From the NCBI GenBank assembly GCA_946886255.1, contig CAMPIG010000150.1, forward strand, positions 1 to 9,953: a stretch of DNA of 9,953 nt, in the 5' to 3' direction. Of the stretch, positions 1-9,428 are shown one piece after another. Position numbers and translations under genes: made by a program. The notes beneath the pieces were generated by a model. The model had not been told where the DNA came from. It did no database searches and was given only the letters and a program-made list of their open reading frames with translations. Position 1 is the stretch's first letter, and each line of letters starts with the position of its first letter. The DNA comes from an uncultured Cellvibrio sp. (GTDB taxonomy: Bacteria; Pseudomonadota; Gammaproteobacteria; Pseudomonadales; Cellvibrionaceae).

Positions 1-134
1 GTTCCACTCCTTAATCGCTGGTGTTAATCAAATAACTCGCCAAGGCTGCAATAAGTTGATAAGACTCTTTTGAATAACCTCCTGAGGTAATATTCTCAGA
101 AAACTCCAGTTATGTCTGTCTCAGGATAAGGGAA
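1..134. other. Non-coding left edge, possible gene remnant
   Basis: No convincing complete gene is seen here. On the minus strand one frame is open for about 30 codons and ends in TAA at 13-11; its last residues read roughly GGYSKESYQLIAALASYLI, which is protein-like. It could be the 3' end of a lost gene, but I do not recognise the family and the frame is closed by a stop near position 108. The rest is probably the upstream region of the broken XRE gene. Confidence 0.25.
77..99. promoter_or_regulatory. Inverted repeats upstream of XRE gene
   Basis: ACCTC-CT-GAGGT (77-88) is a 5-bp inverted repeat. It overlaps a second one, CTGAG-8 bases-CTCAG (82-99). They lie 36-58 bases before the GTG start of the XRE-type regulator, where an autoregulatory operator would be expected. 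The repeats are seen directly; the operator role is inference, and no clear -35/-10 pair accompanies them. Confidence 0.25.
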
Positions 135-327
135 GTGGACAAAACCATAAGGGAGTTGAGGAAGGATAAAGGCTTGTCCCAAGAGGTCTTTGCTGACCTC
201 GCTGCATTGATCGCAGCTACATGGGACATATTGAGAGGGGTGAGAAAATATCACTCTTACCAAGATTTATCAAATCGCTAAGACTCTGAATATTTCCGTG
301 CAATTGATATTTGAGCGCATTGAGTAA
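135..327 (+). pseudogene. XRE-family HTH regulator, two frameshifts
   Basis: Read through two one-base gaps, this gives a ~64-residue HTH_3/XRE protein of the type often found beside restriction-modification and other defence genes. Segment one begins at GTG 135 (TIRELRKDKGLSQEVFADLAAL). Segment two continues in another frame from about 210 (DRSYMGHIERGEK). Segment three starts near 248 (NITLTKIYQIAKTLNISVQL) and ends at TAA 325-327. The first break fits loss of one G (TTGGATCGC reduced to TTGATCGC near 209). The second fits loss of one A from an A-run at 245-248. Protein similarity is continuous across both joints, so this was one gene. No frame alone gives a whole HTH domain. The gene ends 9 bases from the end of the converging DRT1 gene. 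The GTG start is uncertain; the true N-terminus may lie a few codons upstream or be lost. The breaks may be real decay or sequence error. Confidence 0.75.
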
Positions 328-336
328 CTCTGAAAG

Positions 337-1422
337 TCACTTAGGGGGATCCTTTTTTCGATTTGCTGCCAACCTAAAGCCTTCCGGCAGTGGTTTAAAT
401 TTATCTCCTTCTTGTGGCCATCGTTTGGCGCGACTCTGAAATGATCTAAGCGCATCTATGTCTAAAGTCGCTGCGACCACATAATCATTCTCACCACCCC
501 GAAGGCGAGCTATGTCACGCATGAACGACTCTTTGGCTGGGGATCTAACACGGCTGTCCCCATATTTTCTGTTATTTACTAAAACTGTGTATGCGTGTAC
601 ATCAAGAGCAGCAGATTCAATCAAGGAAGAGAAAGTTTCTAAGTCCTGGTTCCAGCTTAAAACCATGAGGGCATCTACCACCCCTTGAAAGCGTAAGCGA
701 GCGATCGCATTTTGTAACTCAGAGCAAATCATCACTCCGAAGTTAATGCCATTATGAATATATACAGGCTTTCTTATTTTTCTTGCTAACAGTTCCGAGA
801 CAGCCCAGCGCTTTCCATACTTTGCATGAAGGTCTTTATCCTCATTAACGGCAGGACGTAACTTTGGTTGCCAAATCTTAACTGATGCTGGATAGCCCAA
901 ACGATTATCTGAGAGCGCTAAAACAACCTCACTTTTTAAATAATTACCGAGAGAGTGTCGATACTCCGTTCCCGCTATCAAGCTAATACCTGCAGAATTC
1001 AAGCGTGCTGCAATACTATTCACCCAATGCAATGGTATTGAAAGCTCGGGAAATAATACGTAATCTGGTTTTGGTGAAAGCTTTAATGTTTCATTAACTA
1101 GCCTGGATAATTGTTGGTATCGCGTGCGCGATAGATTTGATTTATTGCACGCCATTAAAGCCCAGTCTGAATCCTCAGTTTTGATATTGGTTAGAGCAAC
1201 TATGACTTTCTGCTTTTTATCTGTTCCTACTCGGATGAATTTCCTTCGTCTAGCTCTAAATTCGTTAGTGTCGGCTTTTAACTTAACCGGTTGCCCGTCT
1301 TGTTGGACAGCGATAAGTGTAGGCTTAACCCATACCCCGCGAACAGCTTGAGTATATCTTGCCCAAGTAACAGAGGGTTTTTCATTTAGCGATGCACCAC
1401 TCGTTGTAGGTAGCCAACACAT
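337..1422 (-). CDS. DRT1 segment 3: nitrilase-like domain
   Basis: This is the third frame of the DRT1 locus, a carbon-nitrogen hydrolase (nitrilase superfamily) domain. Counting from the ATG at 1422, the triad is Glu126 in LFPELSIP, Lys187 in QPKLRP and Cys233 in MICSEL, so it looks catalytically complete. SWNQD and VNNRKYGDS follow as family-like strands. The natural substrate of the DRT1 nitrilase domain is not known to me. Residues 1-70 are linker. The frame is open only back to a TGA at 1437-1435, so the join with segment 2 lies between 1434 and 1386. The sequence before ATG 1422 (GAGTTGGCACCAGA) is a poor ribosome binding site. A naturally split, translationally coupled nitrilase cannot be excluded, but a lost base is more likely. 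It ends in TGA 339-337. Confidence 0.75.
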   Translation of the reverse strand: MCWLPTTSGASLNEKPSVTWARYTQAVRGVWVKPTLIAVQQDGQPVKLKADTNEFRARRRKFIRVGTDKKQKVIVALTNIKTEDSDWALMACNKSNLSRTRYQQLSRLVNETLKLSPKPDYVLFPELSIPLHWVNSIAARLNSAGISLIAGTEYRHSLGNYLKSEVVLALSDNRLGYPASVKIWQPKLRPAVNEDKDLHAKYGKRWAVSELLARKIRKPVYIHNGINFGVMICSELQNAIARLRFQGVVDALMVLSWNQDLETFSSLIESAALDVHAYTVLVNNRKYGDSRVRSPAKESFMRDIARLRGGENDYVVAATLDIDALRSFQSRAKRWPQEGDKFKPLPEGFRLAANRKKDPPK

Positions 1423-2570
1423 TCTGGTGCCAACTCAGAAATTTCTGAAGGGGTTAGTGGGCGAGTAGGAAAGATGTATGGCAGATAGCTCTCATTTTTT
1501 CTATTGTCTTTTTCCACATACCGAAGACGTTTAAGTTTAGTGGACTTCAAAAACTGCTGAAGAGATTCAGCATCAACCAAACCTGATGACTTCAGTAATG
1601 CAAGCGCTTTCCTTCCCCTGTTAGATGCTTGCTTCCTAACGAATTTTTCAGCTGACTTACTCTGTAAAATCGCTTTATATGGCTCTTTAGCTAGGTCTGC
1701 CATTGCAACTAATGGGGCTTTAGAATGAAAATCTGCAATATCAAACCTGAGATTCAACAGATCCTCAAAATCTTGCAAGCTATGAAAAATTCCATCGAAA
1801 AACAGATTAGATAATCGTTTTTCTTTTTGATTGAGCTCACCAAAAAACAGCTTATCTGAGCGATAGTAGCGTGTGGCGGAATCAATAAACAACCAAGTTA
1901 AGGTCCCCTTAACAAGACGCCAAAAATCATTATTTGCTATGCCTTTTCGTCCGTTTATGCATATATCCTTTCCTGCCGTTACCTCTGATGCCAGTCGATC
2001 AATAGTTTTGTAGGCTTTTAGTGCGATTTTTTCTGCCTCATCCCATTCGTTCATGCTAATAGAAAAGCCTAACAATCGTGGTAGATAACTAAAATGAGCA
2101 AATAGATTATCAGCCCTCAATATATGATTATGAGCAAATTGATAAAATTCCTTTCTCTGCTCCTCCCACTGATCGGGAGGCAAATCTCTAGCTAGAGTTT
2201 CAACATGTCGTAATTGCAAAGACCAGCTTAAGCGGCGAATAGTCAAGCCATCAGCTCGCCTTAGAGTATCCGCATTCTCACCAACACTTCCAGCAGCAGA
2301 TAGAACTTTGGCAGCAGTCGAATTATCCAGTTGGTCTGGCGATGGCATCAAGCGATGCTCGCTTGATAATTCATAAATTTCTTTCTCGATACTATCCAAT
2401 AAATCCAGTCCGGCACGTCCTTTTAATAGAAATAATTTTTGCTTATCGGACTGTAGCTGTATTTTAGTATCACCTTGAATTTTTTTACCTTGCTGAATGT
2501 ACCAAGTAAGGGAATCGCTCTTGTCAGGATAAACACGTTTCTTTCCGATTCTGCTCTGCAATATCGCCAT
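1386..2570 (-). CDS. DRT1 segment 2: RT thumb and linker
   Basis: This is the second frame of the DRT1 locus. The ATG at 2570 is probably incidental: the sequence LQSRIGKKRVYPDKS continues straight from the RT domain, matching the post-YVDD part of an RT (LQSDKQKLFLLKGRAGLDLLD). The remaining ~330 residues are helical, rich in Leu, Lys and Glu, and link the RT to the nitrilase. The frame closes at TAA 1388-1386 after QRVVHR. It overlaps the third frame by 37 bases, and no ribosome binding site appropriate to a separate gene is seen at 2570. Similarity across both ends says it is the middle of one protein rather than an independent gene. Confidence 0.7.
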   Translation of the reverse strand: MAILQSRIGKKRVYPDKSDSLTWYIQQGKKIQGDTKIQLQSDKQKLFLLKGRAGLDLLDSIEKEIYELSSEHRLMPSPDQLDNSTAAKVLSAAGSVGENADTLRRADGLTIRRLSWSLQLRHVETLARDLPPDQWEEQRKEFYQFAHNHILRADNLFAHFSYLPRLLGFSISMNEWDEAEKIALKAYKTIDRLASEVTAGKDICINGRKGIANNDFWRLVKGTLTWLFIDSATRYYRSDKLFFGELNQKEKRLSNLFFDGIFHSLQDFEDLLNLRFDIADFHSKAPLVAMADLAKEPYKAILQSKSAEKFVRKQASNRGRKALALLKSSGLVDAESLQQFLKSTKLKRLRYVEKDNRKNESYLPYIFPTRPLTPSEISELAPECVGYLQRVVHR

Positions 2571-3574
2571 GAATCATTACTATTGAAAATATTCCCAGGA
2601 TCACGCATTACTAGGAACATATCGTCAACATAACGCCCATAATGGATGGGAGACAGCTTTTCAATAACCAGTCTGTCCCAACAATGTAAAAGTGCATTTG
2701 ATATGATTCGGCTTGCGGTTAGTCCGATCACCAATCCGCCGCTAATTTCAGAATCATTGCCACCAATCCCTTTTCCATATTTAGCTGCTTCATTTGACCA
2801 ACGATTTAAGAAATTGGACAGCTGGGTGGTAAATTCAATTTCTTCTTTCGACAGCTCCAAAGCTAGGGCTTTAAGTAACTTCGGGCTTGCTAGTGCAGTA
2901 GGATCAATGAAGTGATAGTAGCTTTTTAAATCTAGAGATACGGCAATAACATCGCGATTTTTTTCGAGTTCGTCCCGAATCGATTTAAGCCCATCGCCAC
3001 GCCATTTTTGATAGGGCTGAAAGTAGGGACAAAAAGACCCGATAGAACTAATATGAAATGGCTTTTCCTCTTCATCAGAAAACATATCGTCGTTTTTGAC
3101 GCGCTTTAATCGTGCTCCATAACAACAGTCGTCTAATTTCTCATCAACCTTGTGACCTATGGTATTTATCCATAGTGCTGAAATTATATGTGCTTCTACA
3201 GGAAAATCACCAACTATGCGGAATTCGGGTACCACATGATAATTTTTGAATAAATGATCGGCAGCCCGTTCTGGATTGGAGAAGTGAACATGACCATTTG
3301 ATGATGATTTGTCTTTCTTGTCTGTTGAAAGTTTCTTCGGTAATAGACGGAAATCACCCAAAAATGCTTTATCTTTTTCAAATCCATTTTGCTCTTGCAG
3401 TCGCACTAGCAGCTTCTTCAAATTGGTTATCAGTTTTTGTTCATACTCAGCAAACTTAAAAGCGCTAGGAAACGTATTTTCAAAAAAACAATCTGCTTTA
3501 GCCTTTCGATAAGCAACTAGCAAATCTTCAATAGTTAATGAATCCCATCCATCAAACTGCGCTTTGTATCCCAT
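2560..3574 (-). CDS. DRT1 segment 1: reverse transcriptase domain
   Basis: This is the N-terminal ~338 residues of the DRT1 locus in its first frame. Residues 1-110 are a mainly helical lead-in. Around 118-190 comes RT finger-type sequence (VPEFRIVGDFPVEAHI). Motif A is VSLDLKSYY (212-220, catalytic Asp215), motif B is GLVIGLTASRIISN (280-293), and motif C is RYVDDMFLV (314-322, Asp317 and Asp318). The three metal-binding aspartates are therefore all present. Similarity to the family continues to W336-R-Y338. The frame then runs into an unrelated tail (CRAESERNVF and on, closing at 2423) because one T of a T-run is missing on the coding strand. By itself this product would have the palm but no thumb and no nitrilase domain. 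Confidence 0.8.
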
Positions 3575-3578
3575 AATC

Positions 3579-4052
3579 CTAGTCCTGTTTCAATTGCTCG
3601 GCAGTCTGAATGGCCTCCACAATGGCGAGTTTTACTGCTTCTGGATAATCCTCTTCATAGAGAATTGAGCTAATAATTTGATGAAGCAGATCTTTATTAA
3701 TTACATTGTCGGCCACCCAAACGGCTATATTCTCCATCTCCTTAGTGAAGCGCTTTACCAGGTAATCGAAGCCATTCAGTTCAAGAAAATAAGCGCCCAA
3801 CGCTAATGACGAGCGTTTATTGCCATCATTAAATGCGTGATGCTTATTGATGGAAAACACTAAGTGCGTGAGTTTGTCTTCCACCTCAGGGTAGTACCAG
3901 TCGTTCCGGATGTGTTCTAGTGGGCTTTCCAGCTGACCAATATCCTTGATGCCTGCAAGACCACCAGAGTTCTCTATGATCCAATCGTGCACAGAGATCG
4001 CGTGCATCACATCGAAATAAAAATTGCGGATGCCGTTATCTGAACCCGTCAT
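3579..4052 (-). CDS. Doc/Fic-family toxin
   Basis: This 157-residue protein has the death-on-curing architecture. A helical N-terminus (GGLAGIKDIGQLESPLEH, 30-47) precedes the Fic core motif H72-A-F74-N-D76-G77-N78-K79-R80, followed by SSLALGAYFLELNG. In P1 Doc the equivalent motif HxFxDANKR, with Lys in place of the second Gly of AMP-transferring Fic enzymes, goes with kinase activity on elongation factor Tu. The Lys79 here points to the Doc rather than the AMPylating side, although Gly77 replaces the Ala of Doc. No self-inhibitory [S/T]xxxE(G/N) helix is obvious. The start at 4052 is one base after the upstream stop, with AAGGA about eight bases before it inside that gene. It is the middle gene of the RhuM-like/Doc/DRT1 operon. 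Its likely control partner is the RhuM-like protein; no Phd-type small antitoxin is present. Confidence 0.85.
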   Translation of the reverse strand: MTGSDNGIRNFYFDVMHAISVHDWIIENSGGLAGIKDIGQLESPLEHIRNDWYYPEVEDKLTHLVFSINKHHAFNDGNKRSSLALGAYFLELNGFDYLVKRFTKEMENIAVWVADNVINKDLLHQIISSILYEEDYPEAVKLAIVEAIQTAEQLKQD

Positions 4053-4053
4053 T

Positions 4054-5067
4054 TTAGCGATCCTTCAAGCGCTTAAATACCGCGAGAGTTGCGGGATCGC
4101 TTAGTTGTTCCTCCAAAGACCTGCTTTTTTCACCTAAGAAGCGATCAAAATCAGCTTGAGGTACAGACTGAATGTAGGCCTCCAGTTTTTCATGCAGTGC
4201 ATCGCGGAAGCACAAATCTCGGCTTGCCATTTTTGTTCGCGCATCCAGTATCAGAGGTTTGAATAGAGGATGTTTTTCAAAATTGGCAAACAAGCCTTCG
4301 GCTTCCTTTTGTGTGAGCTTGCGGCCTTGGGTTGTGCTGGCTTCCTCCAGCTCATGAGCAATACCTGATTCGTAGCTAGCAATCAGGTTCAGCACTTCTG
4401 AATATAGAGTTTCGCGGATATTGGTTTTGGACGCTAAGTTCAAGACCTTTTTATATTCGGCGGCGTTTTCATGGAAAATGCTTTGATAGATCAGGTTGGT
4501 AAAACGCGCATACTTCCAATGGTTGCCTTCAACATAGTTGTCGAGTGCATCGGTGAATTGGCGACGGTAGTTGTCTTCTTGCAGCGCAGAGATCAAGTAG
4601 TTCTCATCACGCTGATTAATAAACTTGGTGTGCCCTCCTGTTCGCTCGGCCATCACGTCCAGCACAATATCCAGCAACCGCGAGCGCAATAGGCGCGCCG
4701 GCTCGCTCTCGGTGAGTAGCATGCCCAGATTCAGCACTGCACGAAAACTAAACACACCCAAAACACTGGTTTTGGTACCGTCATTGGTGTCGGAACCATC
4801 AGTTAACTCTTTGAATTCCCTAAGTTTTTTTCCCTTAAGTAATTGGTAGCCGTTGCTTTTTAGCTCATCCTCATGGCTGACTAAATAGCGCTCAATAGTA
4901 CGATCTGCCACCTCATAGAGCGCCACCACCTGTGCCTTGGTAAACACAGTCTCACCTTCAAAGGTTACCCCGCCCAAACTTAGGTGCTGCTCAGCCTGCT
5001 GTAAGGCATAGCGGTTGTTGAGAATGTTTTGGCGGTCGTGGGACGATTCCGTGAGGTCTTTGGCCAT
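4054..5067 (-). CDS. RhuM-like DNA-binding protein
   Basis: A 337-residue cytoplasmic protein. Residues 34-66 (VTFEGETVFTKAQVVALYEVADRTIERYL) form a winged/helix-turn-helix segment of the RhuM type, comparable with the WATQAQIAELF...ITKHL region of that family. Residues 100-140 follow with the FSFRAVLNLGMLL...RLLRSRLLDIVLDV pattern, and the C-terminal ~190 residues are helical and unassigned. Such genes commonly precede Fic/Doc genes, sometimes inside type I restriction loci, and the RhuM and Fic parts occur fused in some proteins. The likely role, as inference, is a DNA-binding antitoxin or regulator of the Doc toxin. The start is chosen because GGAGG sits five bases upstream, inside the tail of an HsdS remnant whose TAG ends one base before the ATG. 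It is the first intact gene of the operon; no strong promoter is evident upstream. Confidence 0.75.
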   Translation of the reverse strand: MAKDLTESSHDRQNILNNRYALQQAEQHLSLGGVTFEGETVFTKAQVVALYEVADRTIERYLVSHEDELKSNGYQLLKGKKLREFKELTDGSDTNDGTKTSVLGVFSFRAVLNLGMLLTESEPARLLRSRLLDIVLDVMAERTGGHTKFINQRDENYLISALQEDNYRRQFTDALDNYVEGNHWKYARFTNLIYQSIFHENAAEYKKVLNLASKTNIRETLYSEVLNLIASYESGIAHELEEASTTQGRKLTQKEAEGLFANFEKHPLFKPLILDARTKMASRDLCFRDALHEKLEAYIQSVPQADFDRFLGEKSRSLEEQLSDPATLAVFKRLKDR

Positions 5068-5068
5068 A

Positions 5069-5179
5069 CTAGCCTCCGCTGTTTTCGGCTGAGTGGATGG
5101 TAACTTGGCCGCTCGTTAGCATGGGGAGAAGCCAGTCACGAAGCTTCCCAAGAGCTGCACTTTGTTGATTATTACTAAC
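5069..5179 (-). pseudogene. hsdS 3' remnant (type I specificity subunit)
   Basis: The minus frame ending at TAG 5071-5069 reads NNQQSAALGKLRDWLLPMLT then SGQV. This is the characteristic C-terminus of many HsdS subunits (ELatLRDWLLPMLMNGQV), the end of the second coiled-coil conserved region. Only about 36 codons remain. Upstream of ~5180 the HsdS similarity stops and the sequence changes to an unrelated fragment in the opposite direction. The tail sits one base before the RhuM-like ATG and supplies its ribosome binding site. This suggests that the RhuM-Doc pair was originally the continuation of an hsdM/hsdS operon. Confidence 0.7.
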
Positions 5180-5398
5180 TATCGTCCTAAGTATGGGGGA
5201 AGTTCCTGGTTTTTTAAAGATATCGACTTACAAGCCGAATCAATCAATAAAATAAGCAGCCAAAATGATGCGGTAAAAATAGAAGATGAATTACAAACCA
5301 TCAATAAAATATGGCCGAAGCTAAATTCAACTCAACGATTGGCAATTGTCATTTGCTGGATAAGTTTGCCTATAATTGAATTAGGAAAACAGAGCTAG
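5162..5398 (+). other. Orphan open frame, probably gene fragment
   Basis: From a TTG at 5162 a plus-strand frame of 78 codons runs to TAG 5396-5398. The last 55 residues look protein-like (KIEDELQTINKIWPKLNS, then LAIVICWISLPIIEL). No in-frame ATG or GTG and no ribosome binding site precede it; the frame is closed by TAG at 5117. Its first ~6 codons fall inside the HsdS remnant on the other strand, so the fragment proper starts near 5180. I read it as the 3' end of an unrecognised gene, truncated at the junction. Its stop shares the CTAG palindrome with the frame-corrected HNH stop. Confidence 0.35.
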
Positions 5399-6149
5399 GA
5401 TGTAAGAAAAATATTTTCTCTGTGGTAGGTTAATGCGGCATTGTCCGGTAGAAATTTCTCCGGCGCTTTTTTAATAAAGTGCCTTCTATGGATAACAAAG
5501 AACTGGAAAATAAAAATCCATCCATCTTTTCCTTCAGCCTGCCTGATAAAGTCACCCTTAGATCTTCATCGAACGTTATCAAGCCCTTATCAAAGGCTTT
5601 ATCATAGAGCGCGTTTAATGCTATTCCATTGGTAGGGTCCGCACGACGTTGTTCGTTTGCAGCCCATGGGATGATATGGCTAGCAACCAACAGCTCGGGC
5701 ATTGCCAATCCCGAAATAGCACAACGATAATCGTAGCTTTGCATGACTGCCTGCCTAAAAAATCGCTGCACGCGTCGGACTTTAACTTCCCGTGTTGTTT
5801 CAGTCATACCCTCGGGTAGGGTCGGTTTAATAACGTCTTTCTCTATTTTGGCCTCAACCTTGTTTTCATATAACGCCTCCGCTTGCTCGGCAATTGCCGT
5901 GGAGTCATTCATGAAAGCATCCCACAACGCGCGGTCAGCTTTACTTGCGCCAGCCAAGCCTTTTTGACTGAGCGCAGGATCGAGACTGGCAAAATTACAA
6001 GCCTTCATCGCTACCGCAGATGGCGTTCGACCAATGACTTGGGCAATCTGGATAACATCCGGATTGGATTGATGCAATTTTCCGAAGGGTAGGCGACAGT
6101 ATAAATGCAGTGCTAGCAGGAGTTCATTTTCTTTCCAGTTATTGGCCAT
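5395..6149 (-). CDS. HNH endonuclease (HNH_2), frameshifted C-terminus
   Basis: The N-terminus (ENELLLALHLYCRLPFGKLH, 7-26, then GRTPSAVAMKACNFASLDP) and the HNH core (YRCAISGL 141-148, ASHIIPW with His158, NGIALNALYDKAFD 174-187) are those of a family of putative restriction-type HNH endonucleases. The core keeps the metal/catalytic His and the Asn region. As read, the frame ends after LLKKRRRNFYRTMPH at 5430. One extra A in the A-run (complement of 5467-5472) restores KKAPEKFLPDNAALTYHREN and a stop at 5397-5395, the usual end of the family, for a 251-residue protein. So one base appears to be missing. The start at 6149 has TAGGAC about 8 bases upstream and lies 9 bases after the membrane protein stop, consistent with co-transcription. 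It probably acts as a defence nuclease; its target is unknown. Confidence 0.8.
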
Positions 6150-6158
6150 TATGAAGTC

Positions 6159-6611
6159 CTATCGACAATCCGAGTAATTTTCGCGCTTAAATTTATCAGG
6201 AGATAGATTTTGTGAGCTGGATGCGAATTGGACTTCAGCACCTTTGCTCCATGCAACTACATCCACCATACCTATCGGCTTTTTCTTAACACTTTGGGTA
6301 ATTAAATTTTTGGCTTGCCATTCATATCGGTAGCCAACCAATGTGATCCTGTCGCCTTCTTTAAAGCTGGAAATACTGTGCGGATCTGGTAAATCGTCGG
6401 GAACATTAGGAAAAATTCCCTGATGGCTATTAATTTCATATAACTTTGTACAAAGCGCATCGCCCGTCATGGAAAGGTATTCGACCTCAATCGTTGTCGG
6501 CTTATCTCCTATGCGTACGCTTTGGTAACTCATGTAGGGTTTAGTTAGCCATACAAAAAAAGCGATTACTACCAACAATAAGAGACTTAAAATGGAGAAA
6601 AAAATTTTCAT
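6159..6611 (-). CDS. Small membrane-anchored protein, possible immunity protein
   Basis: A 150-residue protein with one N-terminal membrane segment (IFFSILSLLLLVVIAFFVWL, residues 3-22) and a soluble domain of about 125 residues that should face the periplasm. That domain has strand-like stretches (TTIEVEYLS, DRITLVGYRYEWQA, GMVDVVAW) and two cysteines (54, 149). I do not recognise the family. The ATG at 6611 is preferred to one 39 bases upstream because AAAGGA lies about 8 bases before it and the hydrophobic segment starts directly after. It starts 13 bases after the caspase-like gene and ends 9 bases before the HNH gene. A periplasmic anchored partner directly behind a possible protease-type toxin suggests an immunity role, but this is inference from position and topology only. 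Confidence 0.65.
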   Translation of the reverse strand: MKIFFSILSLLLLVVIAFFVWLTKPYMSYQSVRIGDKPTTIEVEYLSMTGDALCTKLYEINSHQGIFPNVPDDLPDPHSISSFKEGDRITLVGYRYEWQAKNLITQSVKKKPIGMVDVVAWSKGAEVQFASSSQNLSPDKFKRENYSDCR

Positions 6612-6624
6612 TGTGTAAATTCCT

Positions 6625-7383
6625 TTACTTTGGTGTTGAGGAATTGGCAAAAGTTAACGTCCTTCGATCTATCCCATCGTGGATGAGCTTTCCGCCTTTA
6701 TAAGCTCTTACCCTTCCGTGTCGGTAGTCAGAACTTTTTCCATTAGGATTTTTATTGGGATTGGAGTTAAAGATATGCCCAACCACGATCGCCTCTTTAG
6801 AGAGATTATCTGAAAACTGTTTGGCAAAGTTGTCCTTAAAGTATGTATTTAGGCCGGGAATCATCTCCGCTGTTCGGCAACCATGAAACTCTACAAAGGC
6901 ATTATTTGAAAATGAAAAAAACTTGATATCACCTAGATATGCAGTATCCGACGAATCATCGAAACTTTGGTTATAGTAGTATGAAATACCCTTTTTAGCC
7001 GTCCAATCGGTGTAAAGGCCGTGCATACTCTCTTCTATATATTCCGCTTGAGATTCATCTTGAGGTCTGTCGCTATCGGCTCGTATGCTCACATGGGCTC
7101 GACGTTGGATAAAGCCGGATTTCGCAGGCTTTGCTAACTTTTTGGCTATATGAATTCCTCCTTGATTTCCGTGGGAAACGATATCTAGCGACACCAATCC
7201 ACCCTCGCTGTAACCATTAATAGCCTTCACTATTTCCTTGCCCGATTTTACAAATAATAGATTGACGGTATCTTCCGGGTACTTTGTTCTGTAGTCCTTT
7301 TTTAGCCTCAGAGCTGCGGCTTGGAAAGTATTAACATCCGATGACGCTATAGAGTCTGTGTAGATGATCAATCGATTGGCCAT
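6625..7383 (-). CDS. Caspase-like (clan CD type) His-Cys protein
   Basis: A 252-residue protein with no signal peptide. A beta-strand LVSLDIVSHGNQGG (63-76) carries His71 in an S-H-G motif, and a second strand NAFVEFHGCRTAE (161-173) ends in Cys169. A strand-His-Gly followed about 100 residues later by strand-Cys is the arrangement of caspase-fold peptidases (clan CD) and of related His/Cys domains. The N-terminal RLIIYTDS...TVNLLFVKSG segments would supply the alternating strands of the fold. The assignment is by motif and spacing only; no closer family is recognised. The start at 7383 has AAAGGAGT 7 bases upstream; an ATG 33 bases further up lacks one. It is the first gene of a three-gene minus-strand operon with the anchored protein and the HNH nuclease. 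It could be a secreted toxin or an intracellular defence effector. Confidence 0.6.
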   Translation of the reverse strand: MANRLIIYTDSIASSDVNTFQAAALRLKKDYRTKYPEDTVNLLFVKSGKEIVKAINGYSEGGLVSLDIVSHGNQGGIHIAKKLAKPAKSGFIQRRAHVSIRADSDRPQDESQAEYIEESMHGLYTDWTAKKGISYYYNQSFDDSSDTAYLGDIKFFSFSNNAFVEFHGCRTAEMIPGLNTYFKDNFAKQFSDNLSKEAIVVGHIFNSNPNKNPNGKSSDYRHGRVRAYKGGKLIHDGIDRRTLTFANSSTPK

Positions 7384-7529
7384 GGGTTTAACTCCTTTAA
7401 ATGCAATATTGTCCAAATACTTCTGATGAAACTCAAAGGTTGACCGATCCTACTATTTTTTTGGCACTTTCCCAAGCGATTGTCTATTAAAACGAGCCAT
7501 ATTGGTTAACTCTGATAAACCTCAGGGGC

Positions 7530-7561
7530 GTCGGGTTACGCCGCTGCGCGGCTAACACGAC
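7530..7561. repeat. Palindromic REP-like hairpin
   Basis: The left arm GTCGGGTTACGCCGC (7530-7544) pairs with the right arm GCGGCTAACACGAC (7548-7561) around a TGC loop, with one mismatch and one bulged base. It is followed by CTACGGG. Very similar GTCGGGTTAGCCGCG-type palindromes occur scattered in many proteobacterial genomes as short intergenic repeats. Here it sits between two divergent genes. Only one copy is in the window; its high GC stands out from the flanks. A transcript-terminating role is not supported because no T-run follows on either strand. Confidence 0.6.
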
Positions 7562-7621
7562 CTACGGGTTATGGCTTCAGCTTTTATTCAGAATACCTTC
7601 GTTATTGTTTGGTAAAGCACC

Positions 7622-7627
7622 AGGAGG
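7622..7627 (+). promoter_or_regulatory. Strong ribosome binding site
   Basis: AGGAGG, a full Shine-Dalgarno core, ends six bases before the ATG at 7634. It fixes the start of the secreted heptad protein and suggests efficient translation. Confidence 0.8.
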
Positions 7628-7633
7628 TTAATC

Positions 7634-8014
7634 ATGAAAAAAATCTTGACGGTGGTAGCTGGGTTGTTGGTGGTTTGGGGTTGGCTGGTGGTTGCGGCGC
7701 CGGCGCTTGCGCATGATCGGCAGCATTGGGTTGGGCATGAGCGCCAGCAAATTAATCGCGAGCGGGAAGCGATGCATCGTGAATTCGATGCGATGATGCG
7801 TGACCTGGATGCCGAGGGGCGGGAGATTGATCGTTGGCAAAGTCGCCAGCATCACGGCAATCATCAAACGATAGGGCGGATCACAAATCAAAAGCGCGAT
7901 GCCTTGAATCGCGAACGCGACAGGCTTAATCGTGAGCGGGATCGGATGAACCGGTATTATGATGAGCGGAATCGGGAGTTGGATCATCGGAATCAGTGGC
8001 ATGATCACCAGTGA
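7634..8014 (+). CDS. Secreted Arg/Glu-rich heptad protein
   Basis: A 126-residue protein with a clear Sec signal peptide (MKKILTVVAGLLVVWGWLVV, cleavage expected after A24-L-A26), so the mature ~100 residues are periplasmic or secreted. Almost all of the mature part is built of seven-residue units beginning with a small/polar residue then Arg. Four units lie at 41-68 (NREREAM, HREFDAM, MRDLDAE, GREIDRW) and six at 85-126 (NQKRDAL, NRERDRL, NRERDRM, NRYYDER, NRELDHR, NQWHDHQ). A His-rich link (RQHHGNHQ) separates the blocks. Such a pattern predicts one long charged helix or coiled coil. Function is unknown; no enzyme motif is present. The start is set by an AGGAGG. A frame on the opposite strand across the same DNA is a shadow of this codon periodicity. 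It stands apart from the next gene by 140 bases. Confidence 0.75.
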   Translation: MKKILTVVAGLLVVWGWLVVAAPALAHDRQHWVGHERQQINREREAMHREFDAMMRDLDAEGREIDRWQSRQHHGNHQTIGRITNQKRDALNRERDRLNRERDRMNRYYDERNRELDHRNQWHDHQ

Positions 8015-8027
8015 GGGGATTACGGCT

Positions 8028-8058
8028 TTTACATATAGGGAGAAATCGACAATATAAT
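8028..8058 (+). promoter_or_regulatory. Candidate sigma-70 promoter
   Basis: TTTACA (8028-8033, one change from TTGACA) and a perfect TATAAT (8053-8058) are separated by 19 bases, a little longer than ideal. They lie about 100 bases before the transglycosylase start, in the only sizeable gap on this strand. The -10 box is flanked by GGAGA (8039-8043) and TCTCC (8062-8066), a small inverted repeat that could be an operator. Both roles are inferred. Confidence 0.4.
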
Positions 8059-8154
8059 ATCTCTCCAGCACGTGTTTGCTTACTAGCCTCAATAGCCTTT
8101 AAAATCCCTCTCTCCAAAATCTGGCTGTGTATGTCAATCAAAAGGATCATGATT

Positions 8155-8994
8155 ATGTTGCTAAAGAATTCGGTTGGTAGAAAAGGGGTTAACAACAAGC
8201 TTGATGTCAAGCTGATTCAGGAAGCATTAAATAGAGTAATCCGAATCCCTTATGCATTATTAGCCGTGGATGGCATTAGTGGACCGGTAACAATAACTGC
8301 AATAGAGCGTTTTCAGCGCCAAGTTCTAAAATTTAACAATGTAGATGGTCGGGTAGATGTTGACGGTAAGACTTGGGGTAATCTTAAGAAATACTTGGTT
8401 GACTCACCAAATAAAAAAACGGCGATGTTCTCTTTGTTTCCAATGTCACCTTCCAATGATTTAAAGAAGCAAGTTGCTATAACACGTAAAAAAATAGCTT
8501 GGGGCGCTAAAGTATCTGGTGCGTTTAAAGAGAAAGTGATACAAATTTGCGAATCTCTAGATCTAGCTCCCGACTATTTGATGTCCTGCATGGCCTTTGA
8601 AACTGGTGAAACATTTAGCCCAAGTATTAAAAATGCGGCAGGGAGTGGCGCAACAGGACTCATTCAATTTATGCCTACAACTGCTAAAGGTTTAGGGACA
8701 TCGACGGAGAAATTGGCAAAAATGACGGCTGTGGAGCAGCTTGACTACGTCAAGAAATACTTCACTCCCTATCGCAATAAGCTGAAGAAGCTGGAAGATG
8801 TTTATATGGCTATTTTGTATCCCGCTGCGGTGGGTAAACCTATTACTCATGTTTTATTTAGTGAGGGAAAAAAGACCTATAGTCAAAACAAAGGTTTTGA
8901 TGCAAACAGAGATGGAAAAATAACTTTAAAAGAGATTTCAGTAAAGGTTCGACAGAAGTATGAAAAGGGTTTAAGTAAAGGATATTTGGGGTGA
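8155..8994 (+). CDS. Peptidoglycan-binding lytic transglycosylase, effector-like
   Basis: A 279-residue protein. Residues 5-80 (SVGRKGVNNKLDVKLIQEALN, AVDGISGPVTITAIERFQ, VDGKTWGNL) form a peptidoglycan-binding-like domain. Residues 125-225 form an SLT/lysozyme-like domain with catalytic Glu149 in MAFETGE, then GSGATGLIQFMPTTAKGLG (163-181) and the late ILYPAAVGK. Near the end, DANRDGKITLKE (249-260) resembles an EF-hand calcium loop. It should cleave the glycan strand of peptidoglycan. There is no signal peptide, so delivery by a type VI system or a phage-tail-like route is more likely than Sec export; this is inference. The start at 8155 is chosen because AAAAGGA ends about 8 bases upstream; earlier in-frame ATGs at 8131 and 8149 are badly spaced. 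The downstream lipoprotein gene follows at once, as in effector-immunity pairs. Confidence 0.75.
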   Translation: MLLKNSVGRKGVNNKLDVKLIQEALNRVIRIPYALLAVDGISGPVTITAIERFQRQVLKFNNVDGRVDVDGKTWGNLKKYLVDSPNKKTAMFSLFPMSPSNDLKKQVAITRKKIAWGAKVSGAFKEKVIQICESLDLAPDYLMSCMAFETGETFSPSIKNAAGSGATGLIQFMPTTAKGLGTSTEKLAKMTAVEQLDYVKKYFTPYRNKLKKLEDVYMAILYPAAVGKPITHVLFSEGKKTYSQNKGFDANRDGKITLKEISVKVRQKYEKGLSKGYLG

Positions 8995-8999
8995 CTGCT

Positions 9000-9428
9000 A
9001 TGAGAAATCTTCATTATTTTATTCTAGTAATCCTTACATCGCTTTCTCTATCAGCTTGCGCAGACAAGCCAGCTTGGCAGGGTACGTATAATTACGAAGC
9101 TATGCTGGGAGAAAATGTTGCTGATGATGCGGTTATTATTGAATATGAATTATCCATCAGTGACAACGAGTGCTCGCTTCAGATAGAAGGTTATCAGATC
9201 TCCGAAAGTATTACCTGTACAGCGACGGAAGATGGCAGTCGCTTGACCATATTTTTTAAGTCTTACGATGATGGTTCCGTTAAAAATATTTATGATGTAG
9301 CTGTTTATCCAGTTGGCGGAACACTATTTAGTTTGAGTTATGAGGACAAGCAACTTTTAACTAATTGGGGCGTGTTAACACCAGATGAATCTATGGCAAA
9401 AAAGGGCATTTACTTCGTAAAGGAGTAA
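9000..9428 (+). CDS. Lipoprotein, candidate immunity protein
   Basis: A 142-residue lipoprotein. It has a short signal with lipobox L17-S-A-C20 (SLSLSACADK) and Ala at +2, which predicts outer-membrane sorting to the periplasmic face. The mature part is a compact strand-rich domain (WQGTYNYEAMLGE, VIIEYELSIS, RLTIFFKS, GTLFSLSYED) with Cys58 and Cys73 that might pair. It resembles small lipoproteins of the DUF5991 kind, though I hold that loosely. The ATG at 9000 has GGGGTGA at 8 bases and puts the signal peptide in place. The GTG at 8991, overlapping the stop of the preceding gene, would add three residues with no benefit. Coupling to a cell-wall hydrolase gene suggests it protects the producer's own periplasm; this is inference. 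Confidence 0.7.
   Translation: MRNLHYFILVILTSLSLSACADKPAWQGTYNYEAMLGENVADDAVIIEYELSISDNECSLQIEGYQISESITCTATEDGSRLTIFFKSYDDGSVKNIYDVAVYPVGGTLFSLSYEDKQLLTNWGVLTPDESMAKKGIYFVKE

Follow-up and report, generated by a model that had tools for sequence, protein, structure and literature searches.

The window analysed here is a contig of 9,953 nucleotides from an uncultured Cellvibrio sp. (CAMPIG010000150.1, assembly GCA_946886255.1). On its minus strand a gene for a RhuM-like DNA-binding protein, a gene for a Doc toxin and a reverse transcriptase (RT)-nitrilase region of the UG5 class adjoin one another. We consider it probable that the window holds the decayed 3' end of a gammaproteobacterial operon for modular, layered defence, built in the order hsdR-hsdM-hsdS, exchangeable cassette, UG5 RT-nitrilase, in which the restriction-modification (RM) genes have been lost, the RT gene is broken and the RhuM-Doc pair (PDC-M59) is intact.

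The RT-nitrilase region of the window

The three genes run in the same direction, with the 337-amino-acid RhuM-like gene at 5067-4054, the Doc gene at 4052-3579 and the RT-nitrilase region at 3574-337. The spacing is 1 base between the first two genes and 4 bases from the Doc gene to the RT start at 3574, in agreement with the first-pass annotation. That annotation had also placed ribosome binding sites inside the preceding genes, and purine-rich stretches upstream of the Doc and RT starts were read there by eye at both inner starts. Its gene order and spacing stand, but its single RT open reading frame (ORF) and its DRT1 label do not, and the name RhuM-like has no Pfam support.

Using PADLOC, RT_UG5-nitrilase was the best model for all three pieces into which the RT region falls (E 2.7e-114, 1.8e-66 and 1.5e-120 for pieces 1, 2 and 3), while Drt1a gave E 2.2e-14 for piece 1, no match for piece 2 and E 2.9e-11 for piece 3. 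An intact relative in locus L004 scored 1024 bits with UG5 and gave the same ranking over Drt1a by a wide margin. The RT palm, whose YxDD motif reads YVDD, and the C-terminal nitrilase both matched UG5 best. Membership in DRT1 (UG1), as first annotated, was rejected on these scores; the likeness to DRT type 1 consists of the RT-nitrilase fusion and a weak profile similarity, far below that to the UG5 model.

Piece 1 (2573-3574) contains the RT palm with YVDD. Piece 2 (1413-2570), in a second frame, contains the remaining RT and a middle region, and piece 3 (337-1413), in a third frame, contains the C-terminal nitrilase domain (PDLC03780, E 1.5e-120; RTasNitrilase, E 2.1e-41). The pieces match consecutive parts of the RT_UG5-nitrilase profile, positions 10-308, 305-596 and 598-901 of 907. 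Frame 0 stays open over 3574-2423, but it ceases to match most relatives at about 2573; the second frame bears homology at 2570-1413 and reaches a stop at 1386, and the third bears it at 1413-337. Both frame changes are net one-base shifts, and no stop interrupts any of the three homologous pieces. One intact frame of about 1070 amino acids was not found in the window, so the third gene is not the single ORF 3574-337 first described.

Relatives of the RT were collected from genome contigs with piece 1 as query, which gave 18 loci (numbered with the prefix L). Pieces 1 and 2 share a frame at the first site in 18/18, and pieces 2 and 3 share a frame at the second site in all 16 readable relatives (L001 and L012 end earlier). 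A full single ORF is present in 13 of the 18 (L002, L004-L008, L010 and L013-L018); in L001, L009 and L012 the gene is cut by a contig end, and in L003 and L011 it stops early within the nitrilase part. Since three consecutive pieces match the UG5 profile and the relatives hold one frame, the window is read as the remnant of such an operon. A programmed frameshift or a natural split into three pieces was rejected because the relatives hold one frame at both sites, because homology leaves the piece 1 frame inside the RT domain, 16 residues past YVDD, and because that frame overruns the start of the next piece by 147 bases. PADLOC has separate small models for a UG5 RT and a UG5 nitrilase, so a split at the second site alone need not be fatal. 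As judged from its frames, the RT-nitrilase gene in the window cannot make the full protein in the usual way.

It is unlikely that both frame changes are assembly or sequencing errors in an operon intact except for the lost RM genes. Errors of this kind would agree with the net change of one base at each site, with the stop-free homologous pieces and with the many full-length relatives (13/18). However, a 320-residue protein, P0121, is 100% identical to the piece 2 fragment over 81% of the query, ends at the same stop and is listed on 7 contigs (independence of the samples unstated), which disfavours a single assembly error; it would probably be longer were its upstream frame continuous. The adjoining RhuM-like and Doc genes are full length relative to their homologues, and the RTs next to the pair also end early in L011, L036 and L070. 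Another protein, P0137, is 96% identical over its aligned part, crosses the first site in frame and is itself 518 amino acids long. When substitution rates (dN/dS) were compared between the window and L004, synonymous sites were saturated in 4 of 5 comparisons.

In L011 (near 12724) and L003 (near 12751) UG5 homology breaks off at much the same place within the nitrilase part, and different sequence follows, as if this were a common insertion site. Beyond the break, a transposase-like ORF was seen by eye on the opposite strand of L003.

Type I RM genes and cassettes before related RTs

Directly before the RhuM-like start, positions 5167-5078 (minus strand) encode the C-terminal tail of HsdS, the specificity subunit of type I RM systems. 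By tblastn the tail matched the HsdS of L004 (53% over 30 amino acids, E 9.9e-6) and of L011 (43% over 37 amino acids, E 5.4e-6). By blastn the hsdS ends of L001, L002, L006, L012 and L014, all of which carry other cassettes, matched about 5100-5147 with 79-89% identity. Three of the four HsdS proteins tested matched the window, by their tails alone, and two HsdR, two HsdM and the relatives' Kiwa and ATPase proteins gave no match in it (tblastn, E ≤ 0.01). Of a complete type I RM operon the window thus contains the hsdS tail only, without a match to hsdR or hsdM. Locus L036 also has a partial hsdS before its RhuM-like gene (79 amino acids, E 4e-13).

Thirteen of the 18 RT relatives are preceded by same-strand type I RM genes (L001, L002, L004, L005, L006, L008, L009, L011, L012, L014, L016, L017 and L018; the HsdS of L017 was assigned by eye). 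This frequency, together with the hsdS tails of the window and L036, supports the modular operon, and it makes the earlier description of a stand-alone RT-nitrilase too simple for these close UG5 relatives. No hsd match was found upstream of L003, L007, L010, L013 or L015 within up to 10 kb (4.7 kb in L013). An 872-residue ATPase precedes the RT in L003, and a possible KwaB scrap (E 2e-4) was seen in L007.

The slot between the RM genes and the RT varies. It contains Kiwa in six loci (L002 and L008 by PADLOC hidden Markov models; L001, L012, L014 and L016 by 62-80% identity to L002), a 588-residue ATPase in three (L005, L006, L009) and RhuM-Doc in two (L004, L011), and it is empty in two (L017, L018). 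A further genome set added L056, with RM genes, Kiwa and UG5, and L059, with RM genes, other genes and a truncated UG5. Left out of the slot counts were the distant UG5 loci L028, L064 and L065, which are short contig ends, L057 and L058, which gave no hsd match, and L060-L063, which belong to BREX operons.

The first-pass annotation had asked whether the pair lies upstream of the RT in other genomes. It does so directly in two of the 18 relatives (L004 and L011) and is absent from the other 16. Searches with the RhuM-like protein added L036 and L070, in which the pair is followed by an RT remnant, so the arrangement extends beyond this strain. The host of L011 is Marinobacterium ramblicola and that of L004 a gammaproteobacterial metagenome-assembled genome; in L036 and L070 the RhuM-like protein is identical to one that its sources assign to Teredinibacter turnerae and Thalassolituus sp., respectively. 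The RhuM-like protein P0068 and a 410-residue UG5 RT fragment, P0177, each list a longest NCBI contig of 824,340 bases and probably represent one further locus with RhuM-Doc and a broken RT.

Both families are rare. The RhuM-like family, PDC-M59A in PADLOC, was found in 3/369 and 6/390 sampled genomes (E ≤ 1e-20), and UG5 in 4/369, 5/394 and 9/390 (E ≤ 1e-60). It is hardly credible that the genes came together in a defence island by chance and share no history. An unrelated HNH nuclease-like gene among the neighbours in the window would suit such a view, yet the two families, each present in roughly 1-2% of the genomes sampled, abut not only in the window but also in four fetched loci (L004, L011, L036 and L070), and hsd genes or an hsdS tail precede the pair in every abutting locus. 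Chance adjacency was rejected on this recurrence.

Unlike slot contents precede closely similar RTs, which is why the cassette is taken to be exchangeable. L004 and L005 share 94% amino acid identity in hsdR, 92% in hsdM and 89.7% nucleotide identity in the RT, with RhuM-Doc in the slot of one and the ATPase in that of the other. The RT of L008 is 87.5% identical in nucleotides to that of L004; its slot contains Kiwa and its RM genes are of another type, with 54% and 49% identity to those of L018. The DNA of the window is 78.6% identical to that of L004 in the RhuM-like gene, 74.7% in the Doc gene and 65.7% in RT piece 1. In a tree of the RT part, a single clade of the window, L004 and L011 was rejected (p-AU 6.9e-5), which also favours the modular operon. 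Over 22 tree rows the slot label requires at least 14 changes, and the RhuM-Doc label 3 for 3 tree rows, in a tree with many weak branches and without a shuffle control. On these sequence comparisons, the slot is swapped independently of the RT.

One observation weighs against fully independent assembly of these loci. The junction between Doc and the RT is near-identical in L004, L036 and L070 and similar in the window, though not in L011, so a shared block with later recombination of the RT is possible.

In L070 the order is hsdRMS, PD-T4-4 A and B (7373-9331), RhuM, Doc and an RT remnant. The slot can thus take two stacked cassettes, PD-T4-4 A and B being placed after hsdS and before RhuM-Doc.

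The RT is intact in one of five loci beside RhuM-Doc (L004, but not L011, L036, L070 or the window) versus 9/9 beside Kiwa, the ATPase or an empty slot with RM genes (L002, L005, L006, L008, L014, L016, L017, L018 and L056; Fisher 0.005), a contrast not relied on, since it was not the RT that led to L036, L070 and the window, which brings ascertainment bias. Dropped from this count were L001, L009 and L012 (contig ends), L059 (RM genes, other genes between, RT cut short), and L003, L007, L010, L013, L015 and the Escherichia coli loci (no upstream RM genes found).

UG5 genes also occur in other settings. The E. coli relatives are 68% identical on the RT part, and a match is present in 253/5,426 E. 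coli genomes; in the two chromosomes viewed, UG5 adjoins ash and incomplete integrase genes at tRNA-Thr. In the three E. coli loci whose upstream side was viewed (L020, L029 and L076), UG5 lies beside AbiE, without RhuM-Doc; the upstream side of L019 is cut by the end of the record. Four distant UG5 genes (L060-L063; 28-32% identical to piece 1 where aligned) lie inside BREX operons. PglX is directly before the RT in 4/4, and BrxC is present in L060, L061 and L063. In L062 the RT is located between full-length pglX and pglZ. In L060, L061 and L063 the PglX profile is matched in two parts, its first half by the gene that precedes the RT and its second half by the gene that follows, which places the RT gene between two pglX halves. 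Three matches on Sinorhizobium plasmids had 30% identity, and exact peptide patterns of the UG5 RT gave no match in IMG/VR.

The RhuM-Doc pair

The pair is assigned to PDC-M59, a PADLOC candidate. The RhuM-like protein (4054-5067) matched PDC-M59A (PDLC04717, E 2.3e-107) and the 157-residue Doc/Fic protein (3579-4052) matched PDC-M59B (PDLC04718, E 1.2e-32); components, order and adjacency are all as in the candidate system, and both genes are intact. According to PMC12988326, systems of the PDC class were found by 'guilt-by-embedding', and the reference list of PMC12409356 gives a 2024 preprint for the class. The name PDC-M59 occurs in no paper of the literature searched, no function test was found there, and any anti-phage activity stays a candidate one.

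The first protein has less claim to the name RhuM. At E ≤ 1e-3 it matched no Pfam family, including the RhuM family Virulence_RhuM, and no NCBIfam family; the best Pfam match was ORF6N at 0.043. 'RhuM-like' is therefore a loose label, retained for convenience. The predicted structure has a winged-helix-like N-terminal part and a helical part, and fold matches liken the model to DdrC, a DNA-break-binding protein. This resemblance is a weak lead; no sequence similarity to DdrC was found, and DdrC did not appear in a profile search of PDB sequences at E ≤ 1.

The second protein is a Doc protein, as first annotated. It matched PF02661 with 46.3 bits (cut-off 24) and TIGR01550 DOC_P1 with 50 bits (curated cut-off 38.65), as well as solved Doc proteins. 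The motif HxFxDGNKR is invariant in 11/11 aligned Doc members and is of the Doc type of Fic motif with lysine, HxFx[D/E]xNKR. Like Phd-Doc, the pair has a Doc-type toxin with the motif lysine and a two-gene order; unlike Phd-Doc, no Phd antitoxin was found upstream of Doc, where the partner is the 337-residue PDC-M59A protein.

Nineteen RhuM-like loci were read, the window included (L040 and L041 are identical over the pair). Doc directly follows the RhuM-like gene in 16/18 fetched loci; the exceptions are L038, where the sequence stops, and L075, where the RhuM-like gene is truncated. By eye, a different RhuM/Fic-like ORF lies about 0.75 kb further on in L075. Among the seven fetched relatives with at least 83% identity, an RT or RT remnant follows in four (L004, L011, L036, L070). 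The other three lack an RT: L069 has a KwaB remnant before the pair, L072 has hsdRMS and the 872-residue ATPase before it, and L073 has neither. The 11 loci of lower identity (53-69%) have no RT, with L037 and L038 ending at or before the end of Doc. The pair lies behind a type III RM system in L030 and beside type I hsd genes in L067, L068 and L071. By PHROGs it lies between phage portal and phage replication genes in L039 and behind phage tail genes in L037; the phage setting of L038, L040 and L041 was judged by eye and by the RhuM match. It also occurs on a 962-kb plasmid. The regular succession of RhuM and Doc and their place among phage genes (L037, L039) argue for an exchangeable cassette in a modular operon, and so do L070, with PD-T4-4 before the pair, and L072, with an ATPase before it and no RT.

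The first-pass annotation had proposed that the pair might regulate the RT gene, guard it or be a passenger, and that all three genes might form a new abortive system. A dedicated three-gene system, in which RhuM-Doc would guard or regulate the RT-nitrilase and Doc would be freed when a phage shuts off the RT or the operon, is very unlikely. The tight spacing in the window, L004 and L070, the recurrence in four fetched loci besides the window, and the RT or remnant that follows in 4/7 close RhuM relatives plus the window would all suit it. However, Kiwa or ATPases can take the place of the pair ahead of closely similar RTs. In the window, L011, L036 and L070 the pair is intact, while the RT is broken in the first and shortened in the other three. 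The pair also occurs without an RT in L069, L072, L073 and phage contigs, and the RT without the pair in 16/18 relatives. A dedicated unit is thus unsupported, since the RT is a broken UG5 gene, the pair is one of several slot contents, and it lacks an RT in 3/7 close RhuM loci and in 11 distant ones. The passenger module fits best of the three options.

It is somewhat doubtful, though worth considering, that RhuM-Doc is an addiction module only, a Phd-Doc-like stabiliser of the island without defence function. The two-gene order, the 1-base gap and the Doc score over the curated cut-off agree with it, as do the persistence of the pair after loss of the RM and RT genes in the window and its presence on phage contigs and the 962-kb plasmid. 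On the other side, the partner is a 337-residue protein and not Phd. The pair also stands beside RM genes (type I hsd in L067, L068 and L071; type III in L030), behind PD-T4-4, which has anti-phage activity, in L070, and between phage portal and replication genes in L039, settings that are not proof of defence.

Proposed operation, known systems and neighbouring genes

In the modular operon that we favour, the intact form would give layered immunity, with RM as the first line and the cassette (PDC-M59, Kiwa, PD-T4-4 or an ATPase) as the second. The RT-nitrilase would add a further RT-based defence, co-transcribed and working separately. The RhuM-like protein may restrain Doc, sense DNA damage associated with infection, or both. 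P1 Doc modifies EF-Tu, and a freed Doc would likewise modify a host translation factor, so that growth stops. In the window we infer that only RhuM-Doc can still be working as built, and the pair would either act by itself or remain as a toxin-antitoxin module that secures its own upkeep.

A broader reading is rather doubtful and is offered tentatively. UG5 would be the shared last stage of defence operons that modify host DNA, namely type I RM in the near clade and BREX in distant ones. The type I form would have one swappable second-line cassette, and in its RhuM-Doc version a DdrC-like sensor would free Doc when the restriction enzyme or the phage breaks DNA. The outcome of restriction, toxin release and RT defence would thus be wired together. 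The slot would contain Kiwa, an ATPase or the DdrC-fold sensor with Doc, PD-T4-4 being stackable before the latter.

Earlier tests took UG5 as a small defence complete in itself; in the present set, 13 of 18 close relatives stand at the end of a type I RM operon. These loci form a natural set for asking whether co-operonic defence genes cooperate or merely ride together, and whether the UG5 RT acts together with the modification of host DNA. Restriction and growth arrest would have a testable link in PDC-M59, where a possible DNA-break-sensing fold lies next to a Doc kinase. As a remnant, the window is of value mainly as a pointer to the loci of its relatives.

A UG5 RT with a C-terminal nitrilase and a transmembrane partner is described by Rousset et al. 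2022 (PMC9122126) among the validated anti-phage systems of P4-like satellites, where the 'RT-nitrilase + 1TM' UG5 RT falls in a different clade from type-I DRT. The RT of the window is of the same class with a C-terminal nitrilase; it differs in its three frames and in the hsdS remnant and RhuM-Doc that precede it. The 336 bases left beyond the RT gene contain no complete same-strand ORF of at least 60 amino acids.

Anantharaman et al. 2013 (PMC3710099) describe R-M loci in which PrrC/RloC-like proteins are accompanied by DOC or RhuM-like genes, and propose multi-level defence for them. They also tabulate an RT-fused HEPN family (AbiA) in an operon with R-M systems, so the presence of an RT gene among R-M genes is no novelty by itself. 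Unlike in the loci of that paper, a UG5 RT-nitrilase closes the operon here, and the slot in relatives can contain Kiwa, PD-T4-4 or other ATPases. The RhuM of that paper may be a different family from PDC-M59A, since L075 has a truncated PDC-M59A gene plus the separate RhuM/Fic-like ORF. No description of an operon of RM, Kiwa or RhuM-Doc, and UG5 was found in the literature searched, which was without bioRxiv, included few subscription papers and did not cover UG5 with BREX. Kiwa (KwaA-KwaB) fills the slot before the same RT in relatives, PD-T4-4 precedes RhuM-Doc in L070 and BREX operons contain distant UG5 genes, but none of the three was found in the window.

No plasmid match covering the whole window was found. 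No sigma-70-like site for a promoter of RhuM-Doc's own was found in 4900-5500, where shuffles expect 0.9, so this absence permits no conclusion. Upstream of the hsdS remnant, an HNH endonuclease-like gene at 5430-6149 (minus strand) is a possible defence gene (PADLOC HNH PDLC04132, E 7.8e-83; HNH_2 above cut-off) that scores under the cut-off of the model for phosphorothioate-DNA restriction. Two adjoining minus-strand genes, at 6625-7416 and 6159-6650, have no Pfam match above cut-off. On the plus strand, the gene at 8011-9428 has peptidoglycan-binding and weak transglycosylase profile matches and overlaps a DUF5991 gene. By the RT end, about 130-330 (plus strand) resembles by eye a broken XRE-type regulator gene, and within this region a 39-base match to L016 lies at 206-244.

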